A stretch of 32,218 nt of DNA, taken from Patescibacteria group bacterium. GTDB lineage: Bacteria; Patescibacteriota; Patescibacteriia; Patescibacteriales; UBA12465. The notes below the pieces were generated by a model. That model worked only from the letters and a program-made list of their open reading frames with translations. It made no database searches and had not been told where the DNA came from. Numbering within the stretch: the stretch's first letter is position 1; each line of letters begins with the position of its first letter. Shown in pieces: positions 1 to 29,924 of the stretch. The stretch is taken from assembly GCA_028705215.1 (NCBI GenBank), contig JAQWDY010000003.1, positions 22,409 through 54,626 of the forward strand, in the 5' to 3' direction. A program made the translations under genes and the position numbers.

Positions 1-83
1 AAAAAAAGTTGCTAAGAAAAAACCAGCTGTAAAGAAAGCCGTTAAAAAGGTGGTAAAAAAAGTTGCTAAGAAAAAACCAGCTG
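1..83 (+). repeat. 29-bp direct repeat inside the Lys-rich tail
   Basis: Bases 1-29 and 55-83 are identical, a period of 54 bases or 18 codons. Each copy encodes KKVAKKKPA. The array may continue upstream of the window. It is a coding repeat that probably grows and shrinks by slippage or recombination. Confidence 0.85.
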
Positions 84-97
84 CTAAGAAAAAATAA
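2..97 (+). CDS. C-terminal tail of a lysine/alanine-rich histone-H1-like protein (partial)
   Basis: Only the last 31 codons lie in the window; the frame enters at base 2 and ends at a TAA at 95-97. The peptide consists almost entirely of Lys, Ala, Val and Pro, with the unit KKVAKKKPA occurring twice. Such tails occur on bacterial histone-H1-like proteins, on some HU-type nucleoid proteins and on some ribosomal proteins, where they bind nucleic acid non-specifically. The upstream domain is outside the window, so the family cannot be named. A terminator follows 54 bases after the stop, so the gene probably ends its transcription unit. Confidence 0.7.
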   Translation, partial: KKVAKKKPAVKKAVKKVVKKVAKKKPAAKKK

Positions 98-18237: not shown

Positions 18238-19569
18238 ATGCCAAGAAGAAAAAAAACGGCGTCTGATGCGCCAGTTGTTAGAACTACAAGAAAAAATGAT
18301 AAATTGCCGACTCGTTTATTGGGAATGAAAGATTTTTCTTATTTTGAGCAAGCTTGTTTTGATTTTGCGCTATCAAGAGCGCGGCACTTGGCTCGGGTTT
18401 ATGGCTTTAAATCAATTAAAACGCCAATTATAGAAAGTTTTGATTTATATAAAAAAACTGTTCGTCACGAAAATGAAAAAGAGATCTACAGTGTCGATGG
18501 TGACAAGGGAGAAAAGCCTGTTCTGCGTCCAGAGCTTACACAAGGAATTATTAGGTCATATTTGGAAAATAATCAGGAAATTGAAAATAAGGTAGCGAAG
18601 CTGTATTCAATTGGGCCAGTGTTTCGTCGGGAAAAATTACAAAGTGGATATTATCGTGAATCAACGCAGTTTGACTTAGAGGTGATAGGGGCAAGAAAGC
18701 CAATGACTGAAGCTTTGTTAATTGCTTTAGCGAGTAATTTTTTTGCTGATATGCAAGTAGATGTTCAATTGCAGATAAATAGTATTGGTGATTTAGTTTG
18801 TCGTAAAGAATATTGTGCCAAATTGTCTAATTTTTATAAGGAGAGAGGCAAGAAATCAAAGCTTTGTGTTGCTTGTAAAAATAATTTAACAAAGAACTGT
18901 TTAAGTTTATTAGATTGCAAACAAGAAGCTTGTGTTAAATTAAGAGAGGGCGCACCTCAAATTGCTGATTTTCTATCAGAAGCAAGCCGTGATTACCTTG
19001 CTAAAACATTAGAAATATTAGATGAGCTAAAAATTAATTATAATTTTAACCCCTATTTGGTAAGAGGATTAAATTATTACAATGATATAGTTTTTGAATT
19101 TTGGCCTATTAATAAAGACGATTCAGTTGGAAACCTTGCTTTGGCCGGAGGTGGACGTTATGATAATCTAATTGAAAACCTAGGCGGCTTAAATTTGCCC
19201 GCCTCGGGACTTGCCATAGGTTTAGAAAGGGTTGTGTCACGGGTAAGAGATAAGGCAGCTTTGACAAATGTAGAAGAAAGCGATATAGTATTTATTGCTC
19301 AATTGGGAGATCAGGCTAAATTAAAAGCACTGCAGCTATCAAATGAATTGTTAGCTCTTGGTTATAATGTAAGGCAATCACTTATTACCGATAGTTTAAA
19401 AGAGCAATTAGAAGAAGCAGCGAAATTAAAAGCAAAGGTTTGTCTGATATTGGGCAAAAAAGAAATAATGGATGGCACCATTTTAATGCGTGATATAGAT
19501 TCTGGTGCTCAGGAAACAGTTGTTTTCAAAAAAGTAAAAGAGCGATTGGCAAAAAGGATGAGCTCTTAA
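18238..19569 (+). CDS. hisS: Histidyl-tRNA synthetase
   Basis: HisRS charges tRNA-His. The 443-residue protein has class II motif 1 around YGFKSIKTPIIE, motif 2 GPVFRREKLQSGYYRE, the insertion domain with several Cys (CRKEYC, CVAC, LDCKQEAC), the HisA motif LVRGLNYYND (274-283), motif 3 GLAIGLERV and a C-terminal anticodon-binding domain (from about 348). Asn279 sits where most bacterial enzymes have Asp in RGLDYY, while the catalytic Arg276 is kept. The basic N-terminal extension of about 20 residues is unusual. A HisZ-type regulatory paralogue is unlikely, because the anticodon domain and motif 2 are complete. Confidence 0.94.
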   Translation: MPRRKKTASDAPVVRTTRKNDKLPTRLLGMKDFSYFEQACFDFALSRARHLARVYGFKSIKTPIIESFDLYKKTVRHENEKEIYSVDGDKGEKPVLRPELTQGIIRSYLENNQEIENKVAKLYSIGPVFRREKLQSGYYRESTQFDLEVIGARKPMTEALLIALASNFFADMQVDVQLQINSIGDLVCRKEYCAKLSNFYKERGKKSKLCVACKNNLTKNCLSLLDCKQEACVKLREGAPQIADFLSEASRDYLAKTLEILDELKINYNFNPYLVRGLNYYNDIVFEFWPINKDDSVGNLALAGGGRYDNLIENLGGLNLPASGLAIGLERVVSRVRDKAALTNVEESDIVFIAQLGDQAKLKALQLSNELLALGYNVRQSLITDSLKEQLEEAAKLKAKVCLILGKKEIMDGTILMRDIDSGAQETVVFKKVKERLAKRMSS

Positions 19570-19586: not shown

Positions 19587-19600
19587 AATAATTAGAAAGA

Positions 19601-19607
19601 GAGGTGG
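19601..19607 (+). promoter_or_regulatory. Strong Shine-Dalgarno of rpsU
   Basis: GAGGTGG ends six bases before the ATG at 19614. Its first six bases can pair fully with the standard 16S anti-Shine-Dalgarno. Of the 22 start sites I examined in the window, this is the only convincing one. Confidence 0.85.
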
Positions 19608-19613
19608 ATTCAA

Positions 19614-19844
19614 ATGGCTGATTTTAAAAGAAAACCAGGCGAAAGTTTTGAAGGTTTTCTTAGAAAATTCAAAAGAGGCTTAAAAAATAGCAAGCGCTTA
19701 GAAAAAGCAAGATCGAAGCAGCATTTAGAGCCAAAGACAACAAAGCGTTTAAATAAGAAGAAAGCGTTATCAGGAATAGCTTTGCAAAAAAAGAATGAAA
19801 TTCTAAGAAAAACTGGAAAACTACAAGAAACAAGACGTCGTTAA
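19614..19844 (+). CDS. rpsU: Ribosomal protein bS21
   Basis: bS21 is a small, basic 30S protein near the 3' end of 16S rRNA. The 76-residue product has the family core GESFEGFLRKFKRGLKNS (9-26), then a long basic helix and an Arg-rich end. It is slightly longer than the roughly 70 residues usual in E. coli. In Flavobacterium and relatives, bS21 helps to sequester the anti-Shine-Dalgarno tail, and rpsU is among the few genes with a strong Shine-Dalgarno, which allows feedback control; the same pattern of site use is seen here. It lies 44 bases after hisS and is followed by a terminator. Confidence 0.9.
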   Translation: MADFKRKPGESFEGFLRKFKRGLKNSKRLEKARSKQHLEPKTTKRLNKKKALSGIALQKKNEILRKTGKLQETRRR

Positions 19845-21471: not shown

Positions 21472-24138
21472 ATGTTAAAAAGAAAAAAAATAATAATCGG
21501 TATTTTACTGGTTTTTTCTATTTTTTTAGTGACACATTTAGTGCAGGCACAAGATTTTGGCTTACAAGAAGTTGACGAGACCATTAATCTCAGCGCCGAT
21601 GATCCGCGTACTATTGTGGGCAGAATTATAAACTTTGTTTTAAGTTTTTTAGGGATAATTTCCTTGGGGCTTATTATTTATGCGGGATTTTTGTGGATGA
21701 CATCTGGCGGCGAAGAAGAAAAGGTCAGGCGAGCACAGAGTATTTTAAAGAATGCAATTATTGGCTTGGTGATTATTTTATCAGCTTGGGGAATAACCAC
21801 TTTTATCATTTCTCGCTTGTGGGGAGCAACTCAAGGCGGTGAAGTTACAGTTAGCCCCATAGGCAATAATTTATCCAATAATTATGGATTAGGTGCTATC
21901 GGTTCTTGCTCGGTTGAATCAGTTTATCCAGAAAATGGGCAAAAAGATGTGGCCCGAAATACTGCTATTATTATGACCTTTAAAGAAGCTGTCGGTTTAG
22001 CCTCAGCTTGTGTTAATGAAAGTGGGACCAGTTGTGCTTGTAATAACGCAGATTGTTCTTATATTAATCCAAATACAATACGTATTTTTACCGAAAACTT
22101 AGGAGATGCTTGTGGTGATACTTGTCCAGAGGTAAATACTAATGTGAGCGATGTTACAGTGTCAGTTTCTTCCGATCAAAAAACCTTAGTGTTAACACCG
22201 CTAGCATATTTAGGTTCAGCTGATAAAAAAACAGATTATGCGGTAAAAGTGACAGCTGATTTAAAAAAATCTAATGGAACCTCAATGTTCGCTTCTTGCA
22301 GTACAAATTATTTAAATTGGGGTTTTGAAGTTAGTACCAAATTGGATTTAACTCCACCTCAGGTTGTCTCCAGAGGTTTGTTTCCGCAACCAGACAATGA
22401 GGCGGATGTGTTTGCGGTAGCAAGCGCCGCTCAAGCGGCTAACGGAGAAATCTTTGTTAAAGATTGTCCGTCTACATTTAAGGCGGCGGAAGTAATCTCA
22501 GTCTCACAAGATGCTCAGGTTAGCCTTAATTATCATGGCAATCTCACCGATTTTAAAGTTTCAGTTCCCGCCGATGCTCCTGGTCGAGCGCAATTGTTTA
22601 ACGCTGCTGATAACTCTTCTTTAGGAGTGGCGGACTTTGATGAAAATATGGTAGTAAGTTTTGAAAACTATTTTTCTTTAAAAGTAGAAAGCACCGATCC
22701 TGGGAATTTATGGGAGATAAAAATTAATCCGGAAAGAAGAGCTGATTCTCTAAAAGTTGGAAATCAAGTTTATATTTTTTCTGATACTGGAGAGAATAAT
22801 AATATTGTTGTAAATGAAGGAAATTGTGATACACGACAACAAGCAGCCAATATTCAGGCAAAATTAAGTGGACACCCTGATATAAATGTTAGCATTTTAG
22901 ATAATCGCGTTATTTTGCAAGCTAAGGTAGCAAATAGCATGGGAAATGAGATTGAATTAGCAACTACTAATAGTCAGGCTTTAGAGCTTATTCCTTTTAC
23001 AGGCGGGACTGATTTAGAGAGTTCGTATCAGGTAAAAGATAAGAGAGATACGGCTATGAATACAGTAATTAAAATAACCTTTAATGAGCCGATGAATCCC
23101 ATTAATATTTCTGGCCCAGCAGCGGTAGTGTCTCCCTTTATTAAAGTGGTTAACGCTCGTACTGATGCTCTAAGTGAAGGCAGTGCTTGTTCTTTAGATA
23201 ATCAATGTAAATCGTATAATTGTGAGGGATCTGTTTGTGTTGGCGATTATTTAAACGGTACTTTTATGGTCAGTAATAATTATAGAACGGTTGAATTTAT
23301 TTCTGATAACGAGTGTGGGATCAATGGCTGTGGTGAAAAAGTATACTGCCTGCCCCCTAGTAGTCAATTAGCGGTAGAATTAAAGGCAGCTGATTTAAAA
23401 AATTGTATTTCAAATCAAGATTGTTTAGGATTTACTCCATTTCAAACTTGTGCACTTGGCGCCTTAGGTTATCGCACTTGTCAAGATAATAGTCAAAGAA
23501 ATTATCCAGCCGCTGATACTATAAATTTAAATGGCGCTACCGATGTTGCTTTAAATTCCTTGGATGGGAATCGCGACACAGTTGTTGATGGCCCCTTATT
23601 ATTTTTTAATGAAAACACAGGTGATGTAAATAATCGTGATAGCTATAGATTTTCTTTTTTTGTAAATGATCAAAAGAATTTACAATCTCCAGCTATTACT
23701 AATATTGTTCCCCTTGGTGGACAAACGGGAATTGTCACTTTAACAACGCCAGTTGAAATATCTTTTAATACCTTAATGATGTCAAGCACCTTACGTTCCG
23801 GAGGGTCTATTTTAAGTAGTGGCACAGAGAGCGTTGCTCATAAGCTTATTAATTTAAAGAGTTCGCAGGAATCTCCTTTAGGTTATTGGTTAACAAATAA
23901 GGACCTTGATACAGGGGCTTTAGATGGTGTTGTTGATGTTACCATAGCTGAAATCCAGCACTCTCCATTTTTAGAGGCCCTTTCTTATAATGCTCAGGTG
24001 GGATCAGGAGTAAAGGATATTTATCAAAATTGTTTTAAACCTAGCGCTGGTCCTGGTTGTGAGGCAAACTGGGAGAATCCTTCTTGTTGTTTTGGAGTAG
24101 CAACTGGTACTTTAAACGAAAATGGTGATTGTAATTAA
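21472..24138 (+). CDS. Large surface protein: TrbC/VirB2-like module plus Ig-like domains
   Basis: The 888-residue protein has a signal peptide (1-26, cleavage after VQA). Next come two hydrophobic helices (about 49-76 and 93-114) around a charged turn, SGGEEEKVRRAQ, a layout like TrbC/VirB2 pilins. The long remainder should be extracellular. A Big_5-like Ig domain runs from about 147 to 295 (VYPENGQKDVARNTAIIMTF). A segment at about 440-515 (NIQAKLSG, then MGNEIELATT and FTGGTD) recalls a domain found in phage tail-sheath and adhesin proteins. Further Ig-like domains follow at about 515-660, with a Cys-rich insert, and at about 740-860. The function is unknown; adhesion or a surface fibre is a reasonable inference. 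It heads a cluster of three giant secreted proteins, and the next gene shares its N-terminal module. Confidence 0.85.
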   Translation: MLKRKKIIIGILLVFSIFLVTHLVQAQDFGLQEVDETINLSADDPRTIVGRIINFVLSFLGIISLGLIIYAGFLWMTSGGEEEKVRRAQSILKNAIIGLVIILSAWGITTFIISRLWGATQGGEVTVSPIGNNLSNNYGLGAIGSCSVESVYPENGQKDVARNTAIIMTFKEAVGLASACVNESGTSCACNNADCSYINPNTIRIFTENLGDACGDTCPEVNTNVSDVTVSVSSDQKTLVLTPLAYLGSADKKTDYAVKVTADLKKSNGTSMFASCSTNYLNWGFEVSTKLDLTPPQVVSRGLFPQPDNEADVFAVASAAQAANGEIFVKDCPSTFKAAEVISVSQDAQVSLNYHGNLTDFKVSVPADAPGRAQLFNAADNSSLGVADFDENMVVSFENYFSLKVESTDPGNLWEIKINPERRADSLKVGNQVYIFSDTGENNNIVVNEGNCDTRQQAANIQAKLSGHPDINVSILDNRVILQAKVANSMGNEIELATTNSQALELIPFTGGTDLESSYQVKDKRDTAMNTVIKITFNEPMNPINISGPAAVVSPFIKVVNARTDALSEGSACSLDNQCKSYNCEGSVCVGDYLNGTFMVSNNYRTVEFISDNECGINGCGEKVYCLPPSSQLAVELKAADLKNCISNQDCLGFTPFQTCALGALGYRTCQDNSQRNYPAADTINLNGATDVALNSLDGNRDTVVDGPLLFFNENTGDVNNRDSYRFSFFVNDQKNLQSPAITNIVPLGGQTGIVTLTTPVEISFNTLMMSSTLRSGGSILSSGTESVAHKLINLKSSQESPLGYWLTNKDLDTGALDGVVDVTIAEIQHSPFLEALSYNAQVGSGVKDIYQNCFKPSAGPGCEANWENPSCCFGVATGTLNENGDCN

Positions 24139-24170: not shown

Positions 24171-27100
24171 GTGAGAAAAAAAATTTTTAAAAATTTTTTA
24201 TTATTTTTCTTAATAGCATCAGGTCTTGTAATTTTTCGCTTTGCTTTAGCGCAAGATTTTGGCACTAATGAAGTAAGTCAGGGCTTAGATGGCGCTTTAG
24301 CGCAAGGTGATCCGCGAACAATAGCGGGAAGGATTATTAATATAGTTTTAGGCTTTCTGGGAGTGGTATCGTTAGGAGTTATTATTTATGCGGGTTTTTT
24401 GTGGATGAGTTCAAGTGGAAATGAGGAAAAAATAGCTAAAGCAAAAAAGACTTTAACGAGCGCAGTTATTGGTTTGGCTATAATTTTAGCATCCTGGGGA
24501 ATTGCTACCTTTGTTCTTAATAGATTAAGTGGGGCGACTCAGGGAACATCAAGCGGTGGCGTTTGTAGTGAAGGGGCAAGCCTAGCTTGTGGTTGTGGTG
24601 GTGTTATGTATTGCCAGAATGGTTATTGGGGAGCTTGCTACGGATCAAATTGTGGTTTTGGCGGCGGAACTGGTCCGACAACTTGTGATTCAAGTCCTAA
24701 TCCAGGCTGTCAAGCCAATAGCAATATTTGTGCTTCTGGTTATTATTGTGATAGTGCCTGTCTTTGTCAGCCCCAAGGTAGTATTGGCGACTCCTGCGAT
24801 CTTAATCCAGAGTCTGCAACTTGTAATGCTAGTGACGACTTGTGTGGTGAATTTTTATCATGCGATAGTAGTACCTGTACCTGTTTTGGGCCACCTGTTA
24901 TTACAGGCGTTAGTCCTATGGGTGGTTTTTGTAATGAAGATAAAAATAAATCTTGTAAAAGTGATACTGATTGCGTCTCGGGATGTAATTTAATTACACC
25001 CAATGGTGCAAGTGGTAATTTTATAACAATTTTAGGAAATAGTTTTGGTGAATATGATGCAGCTGTAAGTCGGGTTTATTTTTCTAATAATCAATTAGGA
25101 AGAAATCCAATTGAAGTTAATCCAGTTTGTGTTAATTTTTGGACCAATGATCAAATTGTAATCGCTGTTCCTCCCGGAGCAGTAGATGGGCCAATTAGAG
25201 TTACTCGCTCTGATGGTTTATCAGATTTAAGCAATGATAATTATGGGCCAAAAATTCCTGATTTTATTGCTAATAACATTGTTCGTCCTGGTTTATGTAG
25301 TGTTAGTCCAGAGTCTGGTCTTTTGGGCGAAGAGTTGGCTTATCAAGGCATTAACCTGTATTCGGGCGAGGCTTATTTTGGTAATTATAATTCAAACATC
25401 CAAGCCTTAAATTCTAATTTTGTTCACCCCAGTGGCTTATCAGGACTAGCTTCTTTACCGAATATTAAAACCGGTGAAGCAGATAGTTTTGTGATAAGTA
25501 GTTTAGGTGGAAACAAACAGGCAAGTAATTATATACGTGTAGCTAAAGAAGCTGACCCAAAAGAAGGCGCTTATTTAATTTCTTTTGCGCCGACTGAAGG
25601 AAAAACAGGACAATACGTTACCATTAACGGATCTGGGTTTGGTGGCGCCAAAGGGACGTCTCGGGTTTATTTTGGAAACGTTGAAGCAAATTATGATTTT
25701 CCAGCAATTTGCTCTTCCTCAGTTTGGAGTGATAATCAAATCATTGTGAAGGTGCCAGAGGGGATGGTAAATGGGAGCTATTATATTAAATTAGATATAG
25801 AGGGGAAGACTATAGATAGTAGTAATCTTTCACCTAATATATTTTCAGTTAACAATTCCCTATCTTTGAAAACAAGTCTTTGTAAATTGGAACCTAATCA
25901 GGGAACGGCGGGTACGCCAGTAAAAGTTTATGGCGAATATTTTGGTGATGAGGGTCGTGAGGGTTTAACTAGGTTTCATCGAGAAAAAAATATCTCAGGA
26001 ACGATAAGTAAAGAAAATGATGCTGATGTTTTAAATATTTCTGTGCCTGCGGGAGCAATAACGGGTCCAGTAAAAGTGGTAAAGAATGATCAATGGGGTA
26101 ATGAGCTTAACTTTACCGTTGCTAGTTGCAAGGTCAACAGTGATTGTCCGGGACAAGTTTGTTGTCCCGCTAATACTTATAAGAAGGGGCGCTGTGTTAA
26201 TAGCCTGTCTGAATGTTTAATTGATATCCCTAACTCTGTTTTTGAATGGAGCTTTTCTACTGGCTATACTGGCACAACAATTTCTGATCCAACTGAAACT
26301 TGTGGCACTCTAGCAAGTTATTATGGTTCTTGTCAGACGGGAGTTTCTTGTCCTAACAAACCAGGGGTTTGTTCCCCTTATTCTGGAGGAGGAAAACAGG
26401 TGGTTGCAGATTGTGATTATTCCTGTTCTTCGGTAGCTGGTTGTAGTGGCGGCCTTGGTTCTAGTTCTTGCACCTACGATGAAATGATCAATAAATGTGT
26501 AAAAGATGGAAGCTCTGGTATCTGTAGTTTACCTCAGACTAAAGTCTTTACCATTGCGGGCCAGGAGTATGAACTTAACTTGACCTGTAATGCAGAGGGT
26601 AATTGGCAAACAGTTACCCCCACTTCTTGTCCTGATGGTTACGAAAGAGGACTTAACGATGTTTGTGTTGATAAAGCCTCTGTTTGTAGTTTGTGTGATA
26701 GTAATTTAAGTTGTGAGAAAATAGGAACTGAAGGTCGCTGCGTGTCTAAAACAATTTGTCCTTCTGGTTCAGTTTGTGAAGAAACTGGTCAAGAAAAAGA
26801 TAGTTGTATCGCTTTTTCTGATCCAAGCTGTGATTGTTGTTGTCGTATTGGTAATAGCGCTCAAGATTGTTGCGCTCCTTTAGAATGTACGGGCACTTGT
26901 GGCAGTGACACTACAGATGATGGTGCTGGTTTTGGCGCTTGTTCCGGTTGTGCCCTAGTGGGAACAACGCAGGCAGAACATGATGCTGCCTGTAATTGCG
27001 CTGGTAGTAGTGGTCAGTATTGCAGTATAAGCCCAGAGACTCCAAATGGAATTTGTTCAGATTGTAGTAATTTGAAGATGGCAAGTAGCTGTGCTGATCA

Positions 27101-29924
27101 TAGTTCAGTTTGTTGTTATGATGCTCGTCAAACCGCATCTAATAGTGATGATATTTGTCGTGGTGGCAGTGGCTTGGAGATTAGCAATAATCCGCTCCAT
27201 CCCGATTATGGTTATTGTGCTTATTATAATTGTGATAGTAATGATAGTTCGCTTTGTGCTAGTTCTACTCCGGTTAAATTAGGTTTATTTAAAAATGTTT
27301 ATGATTGTGAAATCGGAGCAGCCGAAGGAAAATGTGATATTTGTGCTCTTTATGACGGGAAAAAGGATGATTGTTCGCAAATTTCTACCTGTTGTTTTGA
27401 TTATAATACAAGCAAGTGTTTAGGCGGAGAACGAATAGTGGATGGTGAAAATAGTGGATATTGTGCTTATTATGACTGTGGCGACTTGCAAGCAACTCCA
27501 CCGCAAAATCCAAATACCTGTATTCCTGAAAAAAAATTAAGTGGAAAATACTCTAATTTTGATTCTTGTGTTGCTGGGTGTTCCTATGGTTCAAGTGGGG
27601 CAGGACAAAACTGCGTGTCTCAGACTACAGCCTCAGTTTGTAATTTCGATATATGTAATTATCCAGGCTCTGATTGCTTAGTCGAAAATGGAGAGCTTGC
27701 CTCAGACGCTTCTGATTGTGGAATTTGTTGTTGTGACCCTGCTAATCCAACCTCTTGTCAGATAGGAGAAGGATCTAGCTTGTATTGTCAGGCAAATGTT
27801 GGAAATTGCACAGGTGAGAATCGTGGTTTATGTTGTGGTTGTCAGCAAGATAGTGAATGCGGAAATGCGGCGGCAGTAGGTTGTGGTTTTGACTCTTGTT
27901 GTGAGGCGAGACCAACCATTGCCTCCTCTTCGCCTTTAAGTGGTGATGAAAATATTTGTCGCAATGCGGTGATGTCATTGAGTTTTAGTCAGACCATGGA
28001 TTTTGCTAGTTTAGAAAATAATATTATTTTACTTCAAGAAATGGAATATGGCAGCAGTGTTTGTCCAATTGGCACCTTCGCCTATGAAACCGAGGGAGTA
28101 AAAGAGAGAAGTAAAATAGTAAAATTATTTTATAATTTAAAAACTAAAATTAATAATTTCTTTAAGGGCAGTATTTTTAAGAATGAGACTGTGTTGGCGC
28201 AATTACCAGACTCTAATCGTTTATACTGCACTACAAATATAAATGTATCAACTGAAAATACTTTAAGCCAAACAATAGTAAACGTCATGCCACGAAAGCT
28301 ATTGGCGCCAGATACAAATTATTTCTTAATCATTAAAGGAGATGAAGAATTAAATAGCCAGACCGGTGTTATTAGCTCAACGGGCATAGGATTTAATGGT
28401 GACGGTTTGGAAAGTGATGGAGTCTTTACTGAGGGTGAGCATCTTAAATTTAATGATAAAAGTTATAAAAACTCTCATATTGTTCAATTTAAAACTTTAT
28501 CAGACAAGATAACCAATTCTGGTGTTTGTGAAATTGATCATACTAGGGTAAGGCCAAGTTCATATCTTTTTAAAACAACTGAAAATGATTTAGATGAAAA
28601 TGATGACAACCCAAAAAGTGGTAACTTTGATACAGCTTTTGATAGGGATAAAGTGTTTACCGCTTGGGCTTATAGCTCTAATAGTCAGCTTTTACAACCG
28701 GTAACTGGCTATTTCTGGAATTGGAATTTTAAGTTAACAGATACTTCCGTTGCAACTATTTTAGAGGTAAATGATTTGGAGGAAAATAAGGTATTTATAC
28801 GTGCTAATGGCGGAATTACTGATGCTAGTACAAAGCTAGAAGCTTCAGTTGATATGAGTAATTTCTTAGGAGGCAGTGCTAACAGTAGCTTAGATTGCAG
28901 TTGTGTTGATGATGTTTGCTCCTCTAATTGTCTGAATGCATTTTCAGCAGGTGATGGAGAAAAGGCAATTAGTAATATTTACGTCTTTATTTGTAACAAT
29001 CCTTGGCCACCGGTTAATCTTGATGGCACCTGGCAGCCATGGAGTGATAATTGTAATGCGGCGCTTGGGGATTGCACAGATTTTAGTTATAAATTTTATT
29101 ATTGTCGTGACTCTGGAGAGCCTGGCACCTTTGATGATTTGCCAGCGATTAGCGATAAAGCTGTTATTAGAGGAGAGAGCTCAGTTTTGGCTTGTAGTTT
29201 AGATGGTTCGCCTTGCAATACTTTAAATTCAGTTTGTGGTAACGATAGAAATGGTGATGGACAACTTGATGGAGTCTGTGTTTGGAGTATTTTAAAGGAA
29301 TCATATTTTTTCCGAGAACAAGTATTGCCACCGGGAAACATCAATTCTATTGTTGATACGAAATTAGGAGGAGAAGTGCTTATAAACTGGACTTCATTTA
29401 GTAGTCAAGTAAAAAGTTATAAAATTTATTATGGTCAAGCAGGTAGAGCAAGTAGTGTTTATAAAGAAGTAACAAAGGAACAAGCACAGTGTCAGACAGT
29501 TGGTGATAAATTTAATTGTCAAACTAAGATCGGCGGTTTAGAGGATGGCAAGCCTTATGTATTTAAATTATCAGTAATTTCAGAAAATAATACGGAAAGC
29601 ATTTTGAGTTCAGAGAGAATGGCTGTCTCTAGTGATCAGACGCCACCATTGGCGCCAACAAACTTTATTATCTCTAGCTCGACTGGTGACAAATTATCTT
29701 TTTCCTGGGAGAAGAATGATGCTAGCACAGTAAGCTATCGCTTATTTAGAGGTATAAATAGCGGAAAGTATGGAGAGTATTTAAATATTGGAAATCAAAC
29801 CGAATTAGTGTTATCAAAAGATACTTTAAATCCTGATAATAATTATTTTGCTCTTTCTGCTTTTGATGATAACGGAAATGAAAGCGTAAAATCAGAAGAA
29901 GTTGTGTTTTTCTATGAAGATTAA
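24171..29924 (+). CDS. Giant Cys-rich surface protein: TrbC/VirB2-like module, IPT/TIG, Cys modules, FnIII
   Basis: The 1917-residue protein starts at GTG 24171; no ATG gives the full signal peptide (1-27, after ALA). Domains in order: TrbC/VirB2-like two-helix module (about 48-120, closely similar to the preceding gene); short Cys-rich region (130-238); about four IPT/TIG-like domains (about 240-650; for example TGQYVTINGSGFGG); a very Cys-rich stretch (about 650-1245) with a tandem duplication at 962-1140; a Big_5-like domain from about 1243; a region recalling Big_2 domains; and two fibronectin type III domains (about 1719-1822 and 1827-1917, TPPLAPTNF). Over a hundred cysteines suggest many external disulfides. 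No enzyme domain is evident. A cell-surface adhesin or part of a pilus-like assembly is inferred. It lies 32 bases after the previous gene. Confidence 0.85.
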   Translation: MRKKIFKNFLLFFLIASGLVIFRFALAQDFGTNEVSQGLDGALAQGDPRTIAGRIINIVLGFLGVVSLGVIIYAGFLWMSSSGNEEKIAKAKKTLTSAVIGLAIILASWGIATFVLNRLSGATQGTSSGGVCSEGASLACGCGGVMYCQNGYWGACYGSNCGFGGGTGPTTCDSSPNPGCQANSNICASGYYCDSACLCQPQGSIGDSCDLNPESATCNASDDLCGEFLSCDSSTCTCFGPPVITGVSPMGGFCNEDKNKSCKSDTDCVSGCNLITPNGASGNFITILGNSFGEYDAAVSRVYFSNNQLGRNPIEVNPVCVNFWTNDQIVIAVPPGAVDGPIRVTRSDGLSDLSNDNYGPKIPDFIANNIVRPGLCSVSPESGLLGEELAYQGINLYSGEAYFGNYNSNIQALNSNFVHPSGLSGLASLPNIKTGEADSFVISSLGGNKQASNYIRVAKEADPKEGAYLISFAPTEGKTGQYVTINGSGFGGAKGTSRVYFGNVEANYDFPAICSSSVWSDNQIIVKVPEGMVNGSYYIKLDIEGKTIDSSNLSPNIFSVNNSLSLKTSLCKLEPNQGTAGTPVKVYGEYFGDEGREGLTRFHREKNISGTISKENDADVLNISVPAGAITGPVKVVKNDQWGNELNFTVASCKVNSDCPGQVCCPANTYKKGRCVNSLSECLIDIPNSVFEWSFSTGYTGTTISDPTETCGTLASYYGSCQTGVSCPNKPGVCSPYSGGGKQVVADCDYSCSSVAGCSGGLGSSSCTYDEMINKCVKDGSSGICSLPQTKVFTIAGQEYELNLTCNAEGNWQTVTPTSCPDGYERGLNDVCVDKASVCSLCDSNLSCEKIGTEGRCVSKTICPSGSVCEETGQEKDSCIAFSDPSCDCCCRIGNSAQDCCAPLECTGTCGSDTTDDGAGFGACSGCALVGTTQAEHDAACNCAGSSGQYCSISPETPNGICSDCSNLKMASSCADHSSVCCYDARQTASNSDDICRGGSGLEISNNPLHPDYGYCAYYNCDSNDSSLCASSTPVKLGLFKNVYDCEIGAAEGKCDICALYDGKKDDCSQISTCCFDYNTSKCLGGERIVDGENSGYCAYYDCGDLQATPPQNPNTCIPEKKLSGKYSNFDSCVAGCSYGSSGAGQNCVSQTTASVCNFDICNYPGSDCLVENGELASDASDCGICCCDPANPTSCQIGEGSSLYCQANVGNCTGENRGLCCGCQQDSECGNAAAVGCGFDSCCEARPTIASSSPLSGDENICRNAVMSLSFSQTMDFASLENNIILLQEMEYGSSVCPIGTFAYETEGVKERSKIVKLFYNLKTKINNFFKGSIFKNETVLAQLPDSNRLYCTTNINVSTENTLSQTIVNVMPRKLLAPDTNYFLIIKGDEELNSQTGVISSTGIGFNGDGLESDGVFTEGEHLKFNDKSYKNSHIVQFKTLSDKITNSGVCEIDHTRVRPSSYLFKTTENDLDENDDNPKSGNFDTAFDRDKVFTAWAYSSNSQLLQPVTGYFWNWNFKLTDTSVATILEVNDLEENKVFIRANGGITDASTKLEASVDMSNFLGGSANSSLDCSCVDDVCSSNCLNAFSAGDGEKAISNIYVFICNNPWPPVNLDGTWQPWSDNCNAALGDCTDFSYKFYYCRDSGEPGTFDDLPAISDKAVIRGESSVLACSLDGSPCNTLNSVCGNDRNGDGQLDGVCVWSILKESYFFREQVLPPGNINSIVDTKLGGEVLINWTSFSSQVKSYKIYYGQAGRASSVYKEVTKEQAQCQTVGDKFNCQTKIGGLEDGKPYVFKLSVISENNTESILSSERMAVSSDQTPPLAPTNFIISSSTGDKLSFSWEKNDASTVSYRLFRGINSGKYGEYLNIGNQTELVLSKDTLNPDNNYFALSAFDDNGNESVKSEEVVFFYED
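27054..27590 (+). repeat. Tandem duplication of a Cys module within the giant protein
   Basis: Residues 962-1054 and 1055 to about 1140 share an ordered pattern: CxxC, then Cys, CC(Y/F)D, C followed by Gly, and GYCAYY(N/D)C, another Cys, and a late (F/Y)xNxxxC. The DNA of the GYCAYY block is nearly identical in both copies (27209 on and 27457 on). Other parts have diverged, so the duplication is not recent. Confidence 0.75.

Follow-up and report, generated by a model that had tools for sequence, protein, structure and literature searches.

In Flavobacterium johnsoniae, ribosomes that lack ribosomal protein bS21 prefer the mRNA of its gene, rpsU, owing to an extended Shine–Dalgarno (SD) sequence; when present, bS21 contributes to the hiding of the 16S tail (PMC9976891). 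Autoregulation of bS21 via the extended SD of rpsU has been described for Flavobacteriales and Bacteroidota (PMC9976891; Jha et al. 2021 as cited there), and the rpsU leader of Bacteroidota forms 9-13 consecutive pairs (PMC9976891). Extended helices between SD and anti-SD (aSD) are also found in Staphylococcus aureus, where SDs precede about 84% of genes and the helix is extended on the start-codon side, and bS21 was inferred to sterically hinder the extended SD helix in Escherichia coli (PMC13009471).

The window analysed here is a stretch of 32,218 nucleotides from a CPR genome (G000), as the earlier note on this DNA had supposed, and named best matches place it in Candidatus Falkowbacteria. 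As far as we know, and as far as the literature search reached, only in Bacteroidota has feedback by specialised ribosomes lacking bS21 been shown, and the open-access (PMC) literature contained no report of such feedback in CPR, which is not proof of novelty.

The rpsU leader is predicted to pair with the entire 16S tail

The following features of the window are used below (positions in the window):

1..97, + strand: histone-like gene (Lys/Ala-rich), 3′ end only; the gene starts at window position -256, left of the window
18238..19569, + strand: hisS, upstream neighbour of rpsU, with a leader lacking an SD (-1.5 kcal/mol)
19592..19599, + strand: TTAGAAAG, the more upstream of the two arms of the extended SD, predicted to pair with CUUUCU in the distal part of the 16S tail and with adjoining bases of the 16S gene
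19600..19600, + strand: inserted (bulged) A between the arms, with a placement ambiguous by 1-2 bases within AGAGAG
19601..19607, + strand: downstream arm GAGGTGG, whose predicted partner is UCACCUC of the aSD with a last pair G-U, 6 nt 5′ of the ATG
19614..19844, + strand: rpsU, ribosomal protein bS21, an open reading frame of 76 aa with an ATG start, in single copy

The sequence 5′ of rpsU is TTAGAAAGAGAGGTGGATTCAAATG, and the leader can be written as TTAGAAAGAGAGGTGGATTCAA-ATG. A single 16S gene was detected, which ends in ...GGATCACCTCCTTTCTAGGGAG, thus the CCUCC aSD, a point that the earlier note had singled out for checking, is intact. With its own 16S tail, UCACCUCCUUUCU, the rpsU leader forms a duplex of -17.2 kcal/mol (start sites and pairing energies are predictions throughout, and the energies rest on an assumed mature 16S 3′ end), in which 13/13 nucleotides of the tail are paired and one nucleotide of the mRNA is bulged. 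With wobbles and the adjoining 16S bases included, TTAGAAAG[A]GAGGTGG (19592-19607) gives 15 pairs and one insertion, i.e. 8 + 7 pairs around one inserted nucleotide, so the helix falls short of 9-13 consecutive pairs, and its energy lies below the -13 kcal/mol that goes with rpsU autoregulation of the Bacteroidota type. The upstream arm has a counterpart, (C)TAGAAAGG, that is conserved in relatives. As a prediction from sequence, extended pairing between the rpsU leader and the 16S tail is well supported.

Within the window rpsU has the only real SD, just as first claimed, since the second-best start, that of a relA/spoT-like gene, reaches only -3.4 kcal/mol. The GAGGTGG recognised at that time is present, 6 nt from the ATG, but it is only half of the element, because the arm TTAGAAAG pairs too.

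The product of rpsU falls in the bS21 family, although its own match to Ribosomal_S21 (PF01165), 21 bits with an E-value of 2.8e-4, is under the 27-bit cut-off: the PF01165 score of a related bS21 is 43 bits, a profile built from relatives matches PDB bS21 chains at 4.8e-7, and orthologues occur across the phylum. In the CPR bS21, an LRKxGKL motif is conserved at the C-terminus. The comparison with the aSD-binding pocket of Bacteroidia covered Tyr54, which stacks on A1534 in that platform pocket and for which no aromatic residue was found at bS21 alignment columns 51-55 (mapped to 7jil by coordinates only). Thus, the residue comparison suggested in the earlier note did not demonstrate hiding of the aSD by bS21. 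On viral contigs, no relative of bS21 was confirmed.

A strong SD in an SD-poor genome

The genome (746 kb, 36 contigs, 99% complete) was read except for 208 bases of contig 27, and 663 starts were called genome-wide without use of SD information. Among these starts rpsU ranked first by number of pairs and third by energy, behind a T4SS pilin (-21.4 kcal/mol) and the histone-like gene starting at -256 (-20.9 kcal/mol, with the uninterrupted extended SD AGGAAGGAGGTGAT), and ahead of a type IV pilin (-15.3 kcal/mol) and the next start (-11.6 kcal/mol). A permissive rescan, in which all plausible start codons were candidates, left rpsU in third place and yielded one more convincing SD, that of a membrane protein on contig 20 (-13.1 kcal/mol). 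At least four other strong SDs, all uninterrupted, are therefore present in the genome, i.e. those of the histone-like gene, the T4SS pilin, the type IV pilin and the membrane protein with its start corrected. The uniqueness of the rpsU SD does not extend beyond the window, and because other genes carry strong SDs too, the SD is not an exclusive signal of bS21 here.

The domain of the small protein with the strongest SD of the genome, T4SS_pilin (PF18895), also occurs at the N-terminus of two large proteins of the window, 888 and 1917 aa in length (21472-24138 and 24171-29924), where it is fused to Ig-like, TIG or fn3 regions.

Four of the 663 starts reached -12 kcal/mol or lower, compared with 0.2 expected from composition-matched Markov windows and 0.6 from shuffled windows, and 14/663 reached -8 kcal/mol or lower, about six to eight above expectation. 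Between -4 and -6 kcal/mol, no clear excess of the 663 starts over composition-matched controls was found, and hence most genes appear not to use an SD, in agreement with the earlier note. A similar SD-poor pattern was seen in 20 sampled relatives. An apparent depletion of SDs relative to mock windows was dropped, as the effect vanished against composition-matched controls.

A start context other than the SD was also observed. T precedes the start codon (position -1) in 444/590 ATG starts of this genome (75%) vs 28% of internal in-frame ATGs, A is enriched at -5/-6 and at -11 to -13, and most sampled members of the order have a similar T(-1) preference. Perhaps a UAUG start signal replaces the SD in this genome; rpsU itself has A, not T, at -1.

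Strength and interruption of the helix are kept in most of the order

The exceptional SD of rpsU is kept in relatives, as the earlier note required of its reading. Among 84 rpsU leaders of the order, which come from related genomes and are not independent data points, 77 reached -13 kcal/mol or lower and 75 fell within -15 to -18.5 kcal/mol, none being stronger; perfect motifs at genes other than rpsU gave -19.6 to -22.3 kcal/mol. The element was missing from rpsU in a few genomes (G052, G076). Neither of the outcomes named beforehand as telling against the reading, many other strong SDs in the genome or rpsU of relatives without one, arose.

The typical leader of the order is (C)TAGAAAGG N AGGTG(G), i.e. 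it complements the 16S tail except for a single inserted nucleotide of any letter. Most rpsU leaders of the order have this one-nt insertion, and its position and letter vary: even within the genus of G000 the defect moves (AAAG[A]GAGG, AAAGG[A]AGG, GGAG[A]GTGG, GGAGG[C]TGG) while both arms are kept. In place of the insertion, some families have a two-nt mismatch (AGATCGGAGGTG), and the helix has no interruption in a few leaders (G014, G022); counts by defect class are approximate, since some leaders labelled 'contig' carry two-nt or wobble defects.

Upstream of start codons, the insertion motif AGAAAGGNAGGTG occurred 43 times in 96 genomes: 40 occurrences lie at rpsU (assigned by position), two at other genes and one at a truncated contig end. 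The perfect, uninterrupted motif occurred 24 times in 60 genomes and never at rpsU; its genes encode histone-like proteins, pilins, an HU-like protein, putative terminase small subunits and others. The difference between the two motifs at rpsU is large (Fisher p about 5e-16), with sites that are not phylogenetically independent. A shorter perfect motif gave about 100 sites in 111 genomes, about one per genome, with 0 at rpsU coordinates. In three members of the family (L153, L154, L157), a perfect extended SD precedes near-identical genes that resemble those of terminase small subunits and are probably prophage genes.

Altered 16S tails and leaders outside the order

Three genomes of the order have altered 16S tails (G048, G090, G045). 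In G048 the aSD reads CACUUCC and the rpsU leader contains GGAAGT, which pairs at -15.4 kcal/mol with its own tail vs -11.2 kcal/mol with the usual tail, a preference that is the reverse of the average leader's. The G090 leader gains slightly (-14.9 kcal/mol with its own tail vs -13.7 kcal/mol with the usual one), and in G045 no energy compensation was found in the rpsU leader. With few cases, one clear, one slight and one absent, this covariation lends some support to real pairing between leader and 16S tail.

In samples biased to better bS21 matches and thus non-random, 20/23 rpsU leaders of the class reached -13 kcal/mol, as did 29/49 in the rest of the phylum, where 20/49 had no strong SD. 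Bulged leader forms recur in other classes, and sister lineages attain -16 to -17.4 kcal/mol with uninterrupted helices of 9-10 bp. Outside the class, rpsU starts at a non-AUG codon in 18/29 cases with a strong SD vs 2/20 without (p 3e-4), as expected of SD-dependent initiation. Two class members (L211, L229) have an apparent CTG start of rpsU after an extended SD.

Magasanikbacteria have an uninterrupted AGGAGGTGA, often in a small hairpin with upstream TTCACC. In seven class relatives, from Magasanikbacteria and other groups (L213, L222, L298, L301, L305, L306, L308), an upstream TTCACC-like sequence is predicted to fold onto the rpsU SD and form a short hairpin of about -6 to -10 kcal/mol. 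Such a hairpin is possibly a different means of restraining the SD.

DISCUSSION

SD-dependent feedback by bS21 through an interrupted extended helix is the best reading of these data, and we hold it to be moderately probable; initiation by pairing, the feedback itself and the role of the bulge are what we infer. In such a feedback, the rpsU mRNA would be initiated via pairing of its leader with the whole of the free 16S rRNA 3′ tail, while most other mRNAs would be initiated without SD pairing. On 30S subunits without bS21, either new or damaged, the free tail and the platform could form the long helix and translate rpsU well, and subunits replete with bS21 would disfavour the rpsU leader, so that bS21 would make up its own shortage. 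The strength of the helix is kept between about -15 and -18.5 kcal/mol, and in most of the order a single additional nucleotide interrupts the helix within or beside the GGAGG core; this interruption may tune the strength of the helix or may stop bS21-replete ribosomes from using the leader as an ordinary SD. Hiding of the 16S tail need not follow the Bacteroidia way, and bS21 may instead compete with the extended helix; we favour feedback by this competition because the mode of hiding may differ here and because hindrance by bS21 has been inferred elsewhere (PMC13009471). The feedback loop known from Bacteroidota thus probably exists in this distant group too. As for the Flavobacterium-like feedback proposed in the earlier note, the SD-poor genome, the intact aSD and the conserved strong SD of rpsU are in line with it, but the pocket residue Tyr54 is absent and the helix is interrupted.

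The role of the bulge may be questioned separately from the feedback, with which the following alternative is compatible. Selection may act only on total strength near -16 kcal/mol, and the inserted nucleotide would have no role, being common since imperfect long helices of such strength are numerous. The chances of this are about even. Energies are tightly grouped irrespective of architecture, and the uninterrupted helices of the sister lineages reach the same range; however, strength alone predicts that short uninterrupted helices are common and that the outer arm (C)TAGAAAGG is dispensable, yet both arms persist around the defect.

An explanation without feedback is that a strong SD is a mere high-expression device for a few very abundant proteins (histone-like proteins, pilins and bS21). 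Strong SDs other than that of rpsU, here and in relatives, often do belong to small, probably abundant proteins, such as Lys/Ala-rich histone-like proteins, T4SS pilins and an HU-like protein. However, other ribosomal proteins, whose abundance should be close to that of bS21, do without: no SD was found in the leaders of rpsR and rpsF (the bS18 and bS6 genes, located by family searches), and inspection by eye of the 28 strongest starts, which was non-exhaustive, recognised no ribosomal protein other than bS21. Moreover, the design at rpsU is distinct, as it is interrupted, weaker than perfect sites, narrow in energy range and often combined with a non-AUG start elsewhere in the phylum. We therefore think this explanation unlikely.

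Similarly doubtful is a feedback of the Patescibacteria's own, in which the interrupted helix would be readable mainly by ribosomes without bS21 and specificity would come from the conserved defect rather than from burial of the aSD in a pocket of the Bacteroidia type; sister lineages would reach the same end by a small hairpin at the rpsU SD or by weak start codons.

Binding of an rRNA-like structure lets some ribosomal proteins repress the mRNA that encodes them, and the element might likewise bind another RNA or a protein instead of acting as an SD, but this is very improbable, as the leader complements the 16S tail and does not copy an rRNA site, no unusual RNA fold was found at the rpsU leader here (z 0.25), the element lies at SD distance from the start, and the G048 leader tracks its altered aSD.

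If bS21 feedback through the extended SD operates here, its signature across a CPR order and class suggests that the mechanism is old or has arisen twice, and the minimal genomes of symbionts offer a testable case for it. The conserved one-nt interruption further raises the question whether, and how, bS21 discriminates between a perfect and an imperfect SD helix.

Like Flavobacteriales and Bacteroidota, this group combines an SD-poor genome and an intact aSD with an rpsU leader that is kept in relatives and is predicted to pair, at less than -13 kcal/mol, with almost all of the 16S tail, and as reported for Chryseobacterium, at least one change of the aSD is matched in the rpsU leader (here in G048). 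Unlike in Bacteroidota, the phylum is a different one, the helix is mostly interrupted by one nucleotide, rpsU has neither the sole nor the strongest SD, bS21 lacks Tyr54, and the feedback is a prediction from sequence. The rpsU gene of E. coli also encodes bS21, but it has an ordinary SD (AAAGGTGAGAGG region) of -8.5 kcal/mol without the outer arm. As in S. aureus (PMC13009471), pairing goes past the GGAGG core and bS21 is proposed as a hindrance to the extended helix; unlike in S. aureus, the extension lies mainly on the 16S 3′-end side and is restricted to few genes.
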